Shown here one piece after another: positions 1 to 21,637 of a stretch of 43,187 nt of DNA (position 1 is its first letter; every line of letters starts with the position of its first letter). Under the pieces are notes generated by a model. That model worked only from the letters and a program-made list of their open reading frames with translations, did not search any database and was not told the origin of the DNA. The stretch covers positions 1-43,187 of the forward strand of contig NZ_CALMAT010000006.1 in assembly GCF_937859865.1 (NCBI RefSeq), given 5' to 3'. The position numbers and the translations under genes were made by a program. The DNA comes from an uncultured Mucilaginibacter sp. (GTDB taxonomy: Bacteria; Bacteroidota; Bacteroidia; Sphingobacteriales; Sphingobacteriaceae).

Positions 1-593
1 CCCCCGTTTTCTCCCGCTTTTACGTTTGTTGTTGCTGATTTTTGAACCAAAGCCAGCAAAAGCGAAACGTTGTTTGTTGCGCCTTCAACCTGGTATTGCA
101 AACCAACTTTGTCTTTATCAAACTTTACACCATCCAAAGTTAAAACCAAAGATGGAGTTTTTTGCAAGCTGCTTTTGATGGCATTTCGCAGCGTTCCTTC
201 TTCCGATCCGATAAATTCTTTGCGGCCGTTCACCACAATTTGCGGCGTATAAACGGATTGCGTTTTCAACCAATTGGCATATTGGTTTTGCCTTTTAGAA
301 TAAGCCGCGCTGCTGAAAACATCTTTCCAGCCCAAACGGTTCCAGTAATCAACATGAAAAGCAAGGATATAAACCGGCTGGTTGTTGCTTTCCTGCTGAA
401 TTTTTTCTACCAGTTCATCTGCAGGCGGACAACTGGAACAACCTTCGGAAGTAAACAATTCAATCACTGCAAAACCTTTTGCTGCCATGCTGTTTTTATC
501 GGTACTTTTTGGTTGATCGCCGGCAGCGATCCAGGAAATGATGCCAATCGTTGCAAGGCAACCGGCCAAAATGTATAATTTTATTGCTTTCAT
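1..593 (-). CDS. DUF1223 thioredoxin-fold protein, 3' end outside window
   Basis: Reading the minus strand from the ATG at 591-593 gives about 197 open residues that run off the left edge with no stop. The protein starts with a hydrophobic export segment (KLYILAGCLATIGIISW). It then shows the DUF1223 hallmarks: VIELFTSEGCSSCPPAD near residue 45, AFHVDYWNRLGWKD near 80, and VYTPQIVVNGR near 115. DUF1223 proteins have a thioredoxin-like fold with a CxxC-type pair (here GCSSCPP); their role is not established and is probably extracytoplasmic redox. The gene diverges from the sigma/anti-sigma operon. Its promoter (619-646) mirrors the sigma gene's own promoter, so it is a likely target of that sigma factor. 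Family assignment is firm; function is inferred. Confidence 0.9.
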   Translation of the reverse strand, partial: MKAIKLYILAGCLATIGIISWIAAGDQPKSTDKNSMAAKGFAVIELFTSEGCSSCPPADELVEKIQQESNNQPVYILAFHVDYWNRLGWKDVFSSAAYSKRQNQYANWLKTQSVYTPQIVVNGRKEFIGSEEGTLRNAIKSSLQKTPSLVLTLDGVKFDKDKVGLQYQVEGATNNVSLLLALVQKSATTNVKAGENG

Positions 594-618
594 TATTTTA
601 ATTTTGAAGTTTCACCCT

Positions 619-646
619 TTGTCGTTTAAAACAAGTCATCCTTACA
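619..646 (-). promoter_or_regulatory. Putative ECF-sigma promoter of the DUF1223 gene
   Basis: On the minus strand TGTAAG (641-646) and CGACAA (619-624) are separated by exactly 16 nt, the usual -35/-10 spacing of ECF sigma factors. The predicted start near 612 lies about 20 nt before the DUF1223 ATG. The same boxes and spacing occur in mirror image at 665-692. Consensus and factor are inferred. Confidence 0.6.
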
Positions 647-664
647 ATAAATTTAAAAAAGTTT

Positions 665-692
665 TGTAAGGATTGAAAAAGCCGTACGACTA
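665..692 (+). promoter_or_regulatory. Putative autoregulated ECF-sigma promoter of the sigma operon
   Basis: TGTAAG (665-670), 16 nt, then CGACTA (687-692) on the plus strand. The predicted start near 699 gives a leader of about 45 nt before the sigma ATG at 744. The -35 regions of both divergent promoters lie in a perfect 10-bp inverted repeat (ATCCTTACAA 638-647, TTGTAAGGAT 664-673). This is consistent with one sigma factor driving both genes. Confidence 0.6.
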
Positions 693-743
693 ATGAGCTG
701 AAATTTATACAACAATACTGCTTTTACCATATAAATTTTAACG

Positions 744-1352: not shown

Positions 1353-1628
1353 ATGGACGAGATAAAAAAAATTGCCTACAACTGCAGGAAAGCTACTTTT
1401 TTGATTGAAAAGAAGCAGTTAGAAACTTTGACACTTCGGGAAAAACTGGAATTAAAAATCCATTTGGTCGGTTGTTCTGTTTGCCGCACTTTTCAGCAGC
1501 AAAGTATCATGATTAATCAAATGGTGAAAGGTATGTTTCATTCTTCCCAACCTCAGGAAACTAAATTGGACGAAACTTTTAAAAACGAATTGCAGGAACG
1601 CATCAAAGAAAAGCTGAACGGAAATTAA
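1353..1628 (+). CDS. Anti-sigma factor with zinc-binding (ZAS, zf-HC2-like) motif
   Basis: 91 residues, soluble, with no membrane segment. Cys11, His37, Cys41 and Cys44 form the HxxxCxxC anti-sigma zinc motif (HLVGCSVC), with the upstream Cys as fourth ligand. Proteins of this type bind and hold their cognate ECF sigma factor and often release it on thiol oxidation. The gene starts 9 bp after the sigma gene and is surely co-transcribed. The C-terminal 40 residues are charged and probably helical. The pairing with the upstream sigma factor rests on gene order; redox sensing is an inference from the motif and from the neighbouring thioredoxin-fold DUF1223 gene. Confidence 0.85.
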   Translation: MDEIKKIAYNCRKATFLIEKKQLETLTLREKLELKIHLVGCSVCRTFQQQSIMINQMVKGMFHSSQPQETKLDETFKNELQERIKEKLNGN

Positions 1629-7974: not shown

Positions 7975-9221
7975 GTTTTAAGAAAATAGTTTTTTATAAT
8001 TCTAATATAATTATGGACATGGAGTCGCTTGTGTGCGATACCAAGAGGAATTGTAATTAAGTGGTAACCAATTAGCAGATGAGTATAAGTTATTTATGTC
8101 TCCTCTGATCATTCTAATACCGGAATTTTGAAGGTAATATAAAAGGGCTGTTTCATGCGCGTCTCGATCGCTGTATCCACCACCGGCAAGTAATGCATTT
8201 CCCAAACTTGTAAAATTCTTTTCAAATAACGTAACACCATCACTGTCTCTTGCAAAATTTGTAGTCATCCATGTTTTAAAAAGGTTTGGATCGCTGATAG
8301 AAATCATATAAAGGGATCCTAAACCAGTAATTACCGTGCTGGTAAATGTGGATGGAATAGCTAACTTACCGGTATTGAAGAGGGTTCCTATAGCCGCAAA
8401 ATCCTCAGGTGTAGGGGTTGGTGACATGCGAACTGGGTTATTGTTCATATCAACAATGCCTGTCGGATGCGAATGCACCATGCCAGTGATTTGAACCGGT
8501 ACTGTAAGATTAATAAAAGGCTCGTTTCTAGACCCATATTGAAAGCTATAGGTACTAAGTTGATTGATATTAGTATATGTATAAGCACTTTCATGGTCAA
8601 GTGCTAACCAATTGTCTTTAGCAGCATTCAAAGTGTTTGCCCATGTTGGACTGCTTAAGGTGGTCGCCTTAACTGCACATGGATTACTAACAGGAAAAGT
8701 TATATTAGTTGGACTACCACCAAGTGGAGGGTCTGGATATTCTACATCATGACAACTCGTCCTATACTCGGTGCCAGCGTACTGCCAACCGTTAAAAGAA
8801 AAGCAACCACTCGGTATAAAAATAGGTTCTCCAGGACAAAAGTCTACACCACTAACCGCTGTAACATAATATCCATTACAATTGGTGAAATATGTACATA
8901 TTGCAGTTGTCTGACATTCAGTAACGACATAATTCGGTTTTAACACAGAGTTTGTACTAACCGGTGATTTAGCATTAATAATCTTCGACCCATTTATATA
9001 ATAATTTTTACTGTAGGAATTCTTGTCTAAATTTTCAAACAAAATACTTCCTGTAAAATTATTCAAATTGTAATTTTGGCCGATAGCTTTAACTGGATTT
9101 TCAGTATTTTTTTTATCAGTTTCATCAAAAAAATATGTAGCAATTCTGAAAAAAGTTCTACTTGAACTTTTGCCTACTAATAAAAACTTCTTGATATTTA
9201 CTTCTTCAGTATTATTAATTA

Positions 9222-10148
9222 ACTCAAGTTGCTAGATAAAAGGCTTAAAGAGTAAGCATCAAAAAAGGGAATTTTGGTTTACCACAACTAAAGAACCGAT
9301 GATGATGCTTACCAAGGATAAAATTATAGGAATATTTTGTTTTATAGATGATTTACTAAAAACAAGTAAACATTATGAAGACAGCCGGAGGCGGGTCAGC
9401 GATAGCGAGATCATTACAACAGCAGTTGTATCGTCGTTGTATTTTGGCGGGCATCAGGATAAGGCAAGGCAGTTTATGAAAATGACCGGAATGATACCGG
9501 GCATGCTGGACAAGAGCCGTTTCAACCGCAGGTTACATCGGATTGCAGAACTGATTTACAGTCTTTTCATGCAGATCAGTTATTATTTCAAGTATATCAG
9601 TTGTGAGATGAGCTATGTACTCGATTCGTTTCCGGTAGCAGTTTGCGATAATATTCGAATCGCGAATTCTAAAATATTACACGGCAAGCAGTGGCATGGC
9701 AAGCAAACCAGTATGCGCCGTTATTTTTATGGGGTAAAAGTACAGTTGCTGGTTACCAAAGATGGTATTCCGGTAGAGTTTGGTTTTGTTCCGGGCAGTG
9801 AACATGATTCACAGGCCTTAAAGAAGCTGCCAATGGAACTGCCTGCCGAAAGCGAGGTGTTTGCCGATTCGGCTTATACCAATTACGAAATCGAGGACCA
9901 GCTTATGGAAACCGATCTGATTGCTTTGAAAGTACACCGGAAATCAAATGCCAAAAGAACAGATAGCGTAAGTGCTGCCTTTATAAAAGAATATATGCGT
10001 AAACGGATCGAAACAACCATCAGTGAGATCAAAGGCTTGTTTCTCAGAAAACTTCATGCCGTAACTTTCAAAGGATGGTTGTTGAAAATTACATTATTCG
10101 TGTTTGCTTTTACCCTTGATAAAATAATACCTAACTAACAACTTGAGT
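9222..10148 (+). mobile_element. IS982-family insertion sequence, 927 bp
   Basis: Left end ACTCAAGTTGCTAG (from 9222) and right end (reverse complement from 10148) ACTCAAGTTGTTAG form terminal inverted repeats of about 17 bp with two mismatches. TAATTA stands directly outside both ends (9216-9221 and 10149-10154), giving a likely 6-bp target duplication, although this hexamer is palindromic. One intact transposase fills the element. It interrupts the JAB-type lipoprotein gene, which reads in the opposite direction. Confidence 0.9.
9299..10138 (+). CDS. IS982-family transposase (DDE)
   Basis: 279 residues, complete. The N-terminal part has the IS982 signature DSEIITTAVVSSLYFGG and a KSRFNRRLHR segment. 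The catalytic triad is visible as DSFPV near residue 110 (first Asp), FADSAYTNYEIED near 197 (second Asp), and RIETTISEIKGLF near 245 (Glu). The enzyme cuts and joins the element ends. The frame is intact and ends just inside the right inverted repeat, so the copy may still be active. The tandem ATG codons at 9299-9307 make the exact start uncertain by one to three residues. Confidence 0.95.
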   Translation: MMMLTKDKIIGIFCFIDDLLKTSKHYEDSRRRVSDSEIITTAVVSSLYFGGHQDKARQFMKMTGMIPGMLDKSRFNRRLHRIAELIYSLFMQISYYFKYISCEMSYVLDSFPVAVCDNIRIANSKILHGKQWHGKQTSMRRYFYGVKVQLLVTKDGIPVEFGFVPGSEHDSQALKKLPMELPAESEVFADSAYTNYEIEDQLMETDLIALKVHRKSNAKRTDSVSAAFIKEYMRKRIETTISEIKGLFLRKLHAVTFKGWLLKITLFVFAFTLDKIIPN

Positions 10149-21274: not shown

Positions 21275-21637
21275 ATGGAATACAATAAATTAACGCCCGA
21301 AGAAGAATACGTGATCCTGCACAAAGGGACTGAACGGCCTTTTACCGGCGAATACACCAATTTAAAAGACGCTGGAACGTACGTTTGCCGCCGCTGCAAC
21401 ACGCCGCTTTACACCTCGGATACCAAGTTCGAATCGCATTGCGGCTGGCCAAGTTTTGATGATGAAATTCCGGGAGCGGTAAAACGCGTTGCAGACCGTG
21501 ATGGCCGAAGGGTAGAAATTGTATGTAATAATTGTGGCGCCCATTTAGGCCACGTTTTTACCGGCGAAAGGTTTACGCCAAAAAATACACGCCATTGTGT
21601 AAACTCTATTTCGATGAAATTTATCCCGGCAAAATAG
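21275..21637 (+). CDS. msrB: Peptide-methionine (R)-S-oxide reductase
   Basis: 120 residues, a compact single-domain MsrB. Structural zinc ligands are Cys38, Cys41, Cys84 and Cys87 (two CxxC pairs). The catalytic cysteine is Cys108 in [18 protein letters not shown] at 57-63 and HLGHVF at 90-95 are family signatures. The enzyme reduces the R form of methionine sulfoxide in proteins using thioredoxin. No signal peptide, so it is cytoplasmic. It is flanked by the repeat island on the left and by a motif-linked terminator and the nrdBA locus on the right. Confidence 0.97.

Follow-up and report, generated by a model that had tools for sequence, protein, structure and literature searches.

The region at positions 619-692 of the window (the whole stretch of 43,187 nucleotides of Mucilaginibacter DNA that was analysed) is, on strong sequence grounds, a divergent promoter pair recognised by the adjacent ECF sigma factor. 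Together with its anti-sigma factor and its targets, this sigma factor probably represents, in the Bacteroidota, a branch of the Neisseria sigma-E/Haemophilus RpoE2 module and guards methionine and thiols of the envelope, most likely against hypochlorite-like oxidants. This reading draws on the boxes, their conservation, the membership of the regulon, the ligand pattern of the anti-sigma factor and the kinship to the Neisseria system. Many ECF sigma factors of the Bacteroidota are uncharacterised, and for one of them this reading supplies a promoter that is exact and can be tested. It also predicts the sigma regulon in related genomes and would link DUF1223, like the small exported Met-rich peptides, to methionine chemistry of the envelope.

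Two divergent boxes between the DUF1223 and sigma factor genes

An earlier note on this DNA had reported TGTAAG-N16-CGACWA on both strands within a perfect 10-bp inverted repeat, with one box directed toward the sigma operon and the other toward the DUF1223 gene. Both boxes were present letter for letter, the repeat was confirmed at 638-647 and 664-673, and the positions of the boxes (665-692 on the plus and 646-619 on the minus strand) agreed with the directions described. The features of the region were assigned as follows.

3..593, minus strand: DUF1223 (PF06764) gene, truncated where the contig begins (base 1 of the window is base 1 of the contig), with 197 residues remaining
618..624, minus strand: predicted -10 element of the DUF1223 promoter, CGACAAA
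646-619, minus strand: DUF1223-facing box of the TGTAAG-N16-CGAC type, TGTAAGGATGACTTGTTTTAAACGACAA
637..646, minus strand: predicted -35 element of the DUF1223 promoter, TGTAAGGATG; the preceding A/T tract is kept in relatives
638-647 and 664-673: arms of the perfect 10-bp inverted repeat, ATCCTTACAA and TTGTAAGGAT, 16 bp apart
665-692, plus strand: sigma-operon-facing box of the TGTAAG-N16-CGAC type, TGTAAGGATTGAAAAAGCCGTACGACTA
665..674, plus strand: predicted -35 element of the sigma/anti-sigma operon promoter, TGTAAGGATT
687..693, plus strand: predicted -10 element of the sigma operon promoter, CGACTAA
744..1343, plus strand: ECF sigma factor gene, subfamily near TIGR02943 and gonococcal Ecf
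1353..1628, plus strand: soluble zinc anti-sigma (ZAS) gene, 91 aa, C11-x25-H37-x3-C41-x2-C44
1637..1642, plus strand: orphan TGTAAG directly after the anti-sigma stop, in the slot of the third box of most peptide-bearing relatives

Transcription is predicted to start at ~700-701 (plus strand) for the sigma operon and at ~611 (minus strand) for DUF1223.

Conservation of the boxes among relatives

A search of the 3.98-Mb assembly for TGTAAG-N16-CGACWA, which the earlier note had suggested, returned 4 matches. It revealed a third target, and the count itself was not special when set against 3 matches for the reversed pattern. One exact match, C33:38745 (L003), was taken as chance; it lies inside a 315-codon frame and no gene was found downstream. 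With one mismatch allowed, 8 matches were obtained versus 23 for the reversed pattern, and 22 versus 60 in a second search; 18 of 19 one-mismatch matches fell inside frames of at least 100 codons. Since the motif is not enriched over the reversed pattern in this genome, the one-mismatch matches were not used.

The comparison among relatives was made on 80 loci (510 kb), for which the sigma protein was the sole selection criterion and the top 80 of 94 confirmed relatives were taken. Because L027 and G002 are identical in sequence here, L006 and L108 were excluded from this set. Locus counts are not independent events, because some of the loci are closely related or come from one genome (e.g. 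L026 and L062, both in G049). The earlier note had asked whether the boxes are lost where the flanking genes are kept. They were found to be retained: a box (CGAC or CGTC) preceded the sigma gene in 73 of the 80 loci and in the window, and a DUF1223 gene, found adjacent in 48 of the 80 loci and in the window, had its box at 47 of the 48. The exception is L084, where the DUF1223 box is one mismatch off and 21 bp from the gene. Two further sigma loci deviated by mismatches (L037 by one, L038 by two), and no box within four mismatches was found before the sigma gene in 5 of the 80 loci (L093, L096, L100, L101 and L104), whose sigma orthologues are possibly diverged paralogues with other regulation. 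The L093 genome has a second sigma copy with a box and DUF1223 (L190).

Across 41 genomes (this one and relatives), the number of boxes goes with the presence of the sigma gene, as judged from sequence: 32 boxes were found in 12 sigma-positive and 11 in 29 sigma-negative genomes (Mann-Whitney p 0.0003), versus 31 and 56 matches of the reversed pattern (p 0.20). Twelve named sigma-bearing genomes contained 51 boxes with GG, versus 41 reversed-pattern matches and 14 matches at N17; 25 of the 51 boxes and 12 of the 14 N17 matches lay inside frames of at least 100 codons (p 0.016).

These data bear on two other explanations of the region. The boxes might be chance matches in A/T-rich intergenic DNA, and indeed a short motif no commoner than its reverse in a single genome would fit this view. 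It is refuted by the relatives, where TGTAAG-N16-CGAC occurred 190 times, at 74 of the 80 sigma-orthologue loci, with about one occurrence expected. The spacings N13, N14, N15, N17, N18, N19 and N20 gave 0, 1, 2, 0, 0, 1 and 0 occurrences in the same loci, the reversed pattern gave 1, and 200 permuted word pairs gave a mean of 0.67 and a maximum of 11. We consider chance next to impossible; that the boxes are beyond chance is apparent from the comparison among relatives and not from the single-genome count. The perfect 10-bp repeat between divergent genes could also be an operator through which a separate transcription factor controls both genes, its ECF-like look being incidental. However, in the 46 sources with both boxes placed (45 loci and the window), the distance between the -35 regions was 16-18 bp in 8 and ran up to 1813 bp in the remaining ones, whereas the -35/-10 spacing is fixed at N16, and many other genes have a single box upstream. 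A separate operator is thus very improbable. Because the spacing between the -35 regions varies among relatives, the inverted repeat is best read as the -35 regions common to two divergent promoters and not as a fixed operator.

Promoter consensus and its likeness to the Neisseria sigma-E promoter

Alignment of 73 sigma promoters gave the consensus (A/T tract)-TGTAAGGWTTT-N11-CGACTAA. Most of the spacer carried next to no information. TGTAAG was fixed by the search pattern. It was followed by G (0.96), W (0.95), T (0.85) and T (0.85), and CGAC was followed by T (0.86), A (0.99) and A (0.97). The 45 DUF1223 promoters had the same consensus, and an A six bases past the -10 element reached 0.70 in the sigma and 0.96 in the DUF1223 promoters. 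The last bases are CGACTAA in 129, CGACAAA in 30 and CGACCAA in 18 of the 198 boxes counted across the 80 loci. The core of the consensus put forward in the earlier note stands, and was incomplete in that the motif extends to GGWTT and CGACTAA.

Excerpts of PMC2893595 describe the Neisseria sigma-E promoter as a -35 element GTMAGBWTT, a spacer of 12-13 and a -10 element CGTCTAAH; six bases further along, an adenosine is conserved. The promoter found here is the same apart from a T to A change in the -10 element (CGAC here, CGTC there). When promoters were searched with CG(A/T)C, CGAC instead of CGTC was present in 96 percent of the sigma and 98 percent of the DUF1223 promoters. At the gonococcal locus, TGTCAG-N16-CGTCTAA is located at L250 2339-2367, shortly upstream of the first operon gene (start 2401). 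Going by sequence, a Neisseria-type promoter, GTAAGGWTT-12/13-CG(T/A)CTAA, is placed for autoregulation at 73 of the 80 sigma loci and in the window, and the Neisseria sigma-E promoter class is retained across phyla with a single -10 base changed.

The sigma factor and its zinc anti-sigma factor

The nearest named relatives by sigma protein are from Mucilaginibacter and other Sphingobacteriaceae (Bacteroidota). The sigma factor scored 157.7-158.5 bits against TIGR02943 and missed the curated cut-off of 162.2 bits. A profile of Bacteroidota sigma factors gave 123.8 bits for gonococcal Ecf and 125-134 bits for homologues from Halomonas, Sphingopyxis and Acinetobacter, versus at most 51 bits for six ECF paralogues of the Mucilaginibacter genome itself. 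In a maximum-likelihood tree (32 rows) the Bacteroidota and proteobacterial sigma factors join with support of 96/88 and the six paralogues stand apart, a grouping that carries a long-branch warning. By these comparisons the sigma factor appears to be of the same subfamily as the Neisseria sigma-E/Haemophilus RpoE2 type, apart from other ECFs. Streptomyces SigR belongs to a different sigma branch and has a different promoter.

The Acinetobacter and Sphingopyxis homologues are plasmid-borne (L251, L253). Near thioredoxin and other genes they carry TGTAAG boxes, paired with CGTCTA at N17 or CGACCAA at N16; the module therefore also occurs on plasmids in Pseudomonadota. Two 2.17-Mb Neisseria gonorrhoeae records filed as plasmids, NZ_CP119142.1 and NZ_CP119140.1, look like chromosomes, judging from their size.

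An anti-sigma gene was found downstream in 78 of the 80 loci and in the window, and was not found at L093 and L101. The ZAS motif was invariant (79 of 79 anti-sigma sequences), in line with the thiol-type anti-sigma factor proposed in the earlier note. The ligand numbering C11-H37-C41-C44 is identical to that of Streptomyces RsrA and the spacing is that of MseR (both from excerpts of PMC2893595, which quotes the RsrA numbering). When inspected by eye, the 91-aa protein lacked a membrane helix. Its AlphaFold2 model consists of four helices with a mean pLDDT of 86.9. The leading structural neighbours of this model, MucA, RsiW, RslA and, lower, ChrR, had weak scores (Foldseek E 2.5 or worse, Z at most 6.8); 5 of the 12 Foldseek rows were anti-sigma chains, and the three that were re-examined had Z of 5.6-6.8, a range common for helical models. 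A PDB sequence search with the window anti-sigma factor matched no RsrA entry, and its two nitrite reductase matches were dismissed as chance.

DUF1223, Met-rich peptides and the wider predicted regulon

The DUF1223 product carries an N-terminal signal-like stretch and an SEGCSSCP motif. It scored 172 bits against PF06764, over the gathering cut-off of 30.7, and matched structure 2axo (E 9.7e-24), and thus a thioredoxin fold, which excerpts of PMC3091736 give for DUF1223. The redox-fold CxxC protein described in the earlier note was borne out, with SEGCSSCP kept in 49 of 49 DUF1223 sequences. Its box is kept in relatives, which upholds DUF1223 as a predicted target, but it is not the sole other one, as a third box precedes the gene for a Met-rich exported peptide. 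At L170 (G045, Pedobacter fastidiosus, the genome of L048), the DUF1223 and Met-rich peptide genes diverge from back-to-back boxes with no sigma gene between them.

Three boxes with GG were found in this genome, at the sigma operon, DUF1223 and C83:15896, and its exact-box regulon consists of these three promoters. The box at C83:15896 lies 40 bp upstream of the gene for a 66-residue exported-looking Met/Lys-rich peptide. A similar peptide stands behind a box in 46 of the 80 loci, usually directly after the anti-sigma gene. These peptides average 18 percent Met and 29 percent Lys after residue 25 (48 ORFs, one of which, on the minus strand of L030, was spurious and dropped). An exported Met-rich peptide output, as in ECF16 systems, is present by sequence. 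Against TIGR02953 (MXKDX repeat peptide) the peptide of this genome scored 18.5 bits at a curated cut-off of 41, and three other peptides gave no match; the low-complexity peptide also had weak matches to NCBIfam families unrelated to it, which were discarded. In the stretch 1637-1665 of the window, the orphan TGTAAG has CGAA at N19. No more than a tiny ORF follows, and this is perhaps a decayed promoter slot. Because the slot after the anti-sigma gene has TGTAAG without CGAC at N16, it suggests that the peptide gene has moved in this genome. At L106, a gene of the carboxymuconolactone decarboxylase family (PF02627) near the Met-rich peptide gene is apparently split in two frames (8793-9119 and 9126-9350), which seems to be a frameshift or an assembly fault.

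Box targets in the relatives indicate that the regulon is wider than the sigma operon and DUF1223. For the 51 boxes in the 12 named genomes, the downstream frames were read and assigned with Pfam on examples and by eye for the rest. The predicted targets comprised 11 sigma genes, 7 DUF1223 genes, 6 Met-rich peptides, 4 MsrA or MsrB genes, 4 YHS genes and 5 genes for thioredoxin, AhpC/TSA, DsbD-N, DUF417 and cytochrome b561; 1 spondin-like, 1 DM13 and 2 TonB-type receptor genes were also found, and nothing sensible followed 10 boxes. In a tally by hand, 39 of the 51 fell within this set of families. Two of the 12 genomes had no such box, and another has three boxes without a sensible target. 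Targets identified by Pfam in relatives were MsrA, MsrB, DUF417, DsbD_N, thioredoxin, AhpC/TSA and molybdopterin oxidoreductase. The msr genes were preceded by 4 boxes in 3 of the 12 named genomes, and by boxes in G015 and G037. At L207 a boxed cytochrome b561 gene is followed by a molybdopterin oxidoreductase gene (PF00174), an MsrP-like pair. The two MsrA and two MsrB genes of the Mucilaginibacter genome itself have no box, their upstream regions scoring at best 9-12 of 17, a level reached by most random windows; one of them, an MsrB gene, is located in the window at 21290-21628 (plus strand), 20 kb from the sigma locus. DUF417 had no match in this genome. At L167:1548-1573 a box whose seventh position is T (TGTAAGTTA...CGAC) was observed; an alpha/beta hydrolase gene (Pfam Hydrolase_4) follows 53 bp downstream, and another box lies nearby on the opposite strand.

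Comparison with known systems

Neisseria sigma-E (Ecf, NMB2144) with MseR (NMB2145) shares the sigma subfamily and, by prediction, autoregulation with the system described here, as well as a small cytoplasmic ZAS anti-sigma factor downstream with the same ligand spacing (PMC2893595). Msr is among the targets in some Bacteroidota relatives, but because the msr genes of this genome have no box, the system was classed as a variant and not as the same as the Neisseria/Haemophilus module. The gonococcal operon opens with a DoxX-like gene (by eye and from PMC7907618), followed by one for a Cys-rich repeat exported protein (L250 2924-3232), unlike the core outputs here, which are DUF1223 and the Met/Lys-rich peptide. 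Haemophilus influenzae RpoE2/HrsE likewise pairs an ECF sigma factor with a cytoplasmic ZAS anti-sigma factor, of 67 aa, and controls MsrAB and a DoxX cluster. It differs in its very limited autoregulation, and its main text has no DUF1223, nor do the parts covered here name a Met-rich peptide (PMC7907618, where 'ECF13' is the label for Neisseria-type systems).

The Met-rich exported peptide and an MsrPQ-like system are found in Brucella BcrS/AbcS-bcrXQP and Azospira SigF (ECF16), with divergent sigma and peptide promoters and induction by HOCl (PMC8315932, for Azospira through citing text). ECF16 promoters are TGTAAC-N16/17-CGAA, whereas the window and its relatives have TGTAAGG and CGAC and so do not carry the ECF16 promoter. 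Caulobacter NrsF has two cysteines that probably face the periplasm (PMC3511200), in contrast to the soluble 91-aa ZAS protein here, which is not of the NrsF type. Bradyrhizobium EcfF/OsrA (ECF16) is similar in that an autoregulated ECF sigma factor is induced by H2O2 and controls three methionine sulfoxide reductases, but its promoter is GTAAC and OsrA, in which C129 and C179 are conserved, is no ZAS protein (PMC3420878). Since the ECF16 promoter and anti-sigma type are absent and the Met-rich output is present, the system is a variant joining both kinds: judged by sequence likeness, sigma factor, anti-sigma factor and promoter are of the already known Neisseria sigma-E/Haemophilus RpoE2 kind, and the Met-rich output is of the Brucella/Azospira ECF16 kind. 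A description of this system in Bacteroidota was not found among the open-licence PMC papers that the searches brought up.

More tentatively, the system may represent a Bacteroidota-wide response to envelope methionine oxidation, in which a cytoplasmic thiol switch controls a recyclable extracytoplasmic KM-repeat methionine sink and DUF1223 serves this sink as a dedicated, thioredoxin-like donor of electrons. If true, the DUF1223, DUF417 and YHS proteins of unknown function would have a common role, and a Neisseria-type sensor and an ECF16-type output, known only apart, would be joined.

Proposed circuit and its inducer

From these features we infer transcription from the boxes, zinc and redox switching, the inducer and the role of each product. 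In an unstressed cell the cytoplasmic 91-residue zinc anti-sigma factor would bind the sigma factor. By analogy to RsrA and MseR, modification of the C11/C41/C44 zinc-thiol centre would free the sigma factor. Once free, it would transcribe its own operon, a positive autoregulation, and would also drive DUF1223 and this genome's third promoter, 5' of the 66-residue Met/Lys-rich peptide. The peptide may act as a sacrificial, recyclable methionine sink that is reduced by Msr enzymes, and such a sink role has been reported for the Azospira Met-rich peptide (quoted in PMC8315932). DUF1223 may be an envelope thiol oxidoreductase that supplies or repairs thiols. Because in relatives the box precedes MsrA, MsrB, MsrP-like, peroxiredoxin, DsbD-N, DUF417 and YHS genes, the output would protect and repair methionine and thiols in the envelope. 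The circuit would answer a redox signal.

Among 14 control genomes, DUF417 had a match in E. coli only, where the member is RclC. rclC is named among the HOCl-response genes in excerpts of PMC7464077, and hypochlorite-like oxidants are thus the preferred inducer. As a caution, N. meningitidis sigma-E showed no response to the oxidants it was tested with (PMC2893595).

With the same promoters and the same sigma/anti-sigma pair, the main signal could instead be copper or another thiophilic metal. Metals would displace the zinc of the ZAS centre, the Met-rich peptide would bind Cu(I), and Msr-type repair would be secondary. Exported peptides rich in Met can bind Cu(I), and the peptides found here are full of M-x-x-M spacings. 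The Cys-rich repeat exported protein encoded second in the gonococcal sigma operon is of a kind that we presume to be the copper-binding bufferins. In Caulobacter, copper induces the ECF16 SigF regulon, with an MsrPQ homologue among its members, and mutation of sigF makes the cells sensitive to copper (PMC8224329, in part); chromium and cadmium are signals for the same system (PMC3511200). Copper is a serious rival for the signal because of this Caulobacter regulon and the gonococcal Cys-rich protein, and a low-complexity match to a copper-resistance model adds a weak hint (13.8 bits at a cut-off of 479). However, boxes before MsrA, MsrB, the MsrP-like operon, AhpC/TSA and DsbD-N fit oxidation, and no copper pump or multicopper oxidase was recognised among the first downstream frames read, each cluster being seen through a few of its members and each frame through its first residues. 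Expression of Haemophilus rpoE2, moreover, rises with HOCl and H2O2 (PMC7907618, in part). A metal as the main signal is the less likely reading, and an oxidant of the hypochlorite type is the one we prefer. The gonococcal Cys-rich and the Bacteroidota Met-rich exported proteins are possibly two chemical versions of one device.
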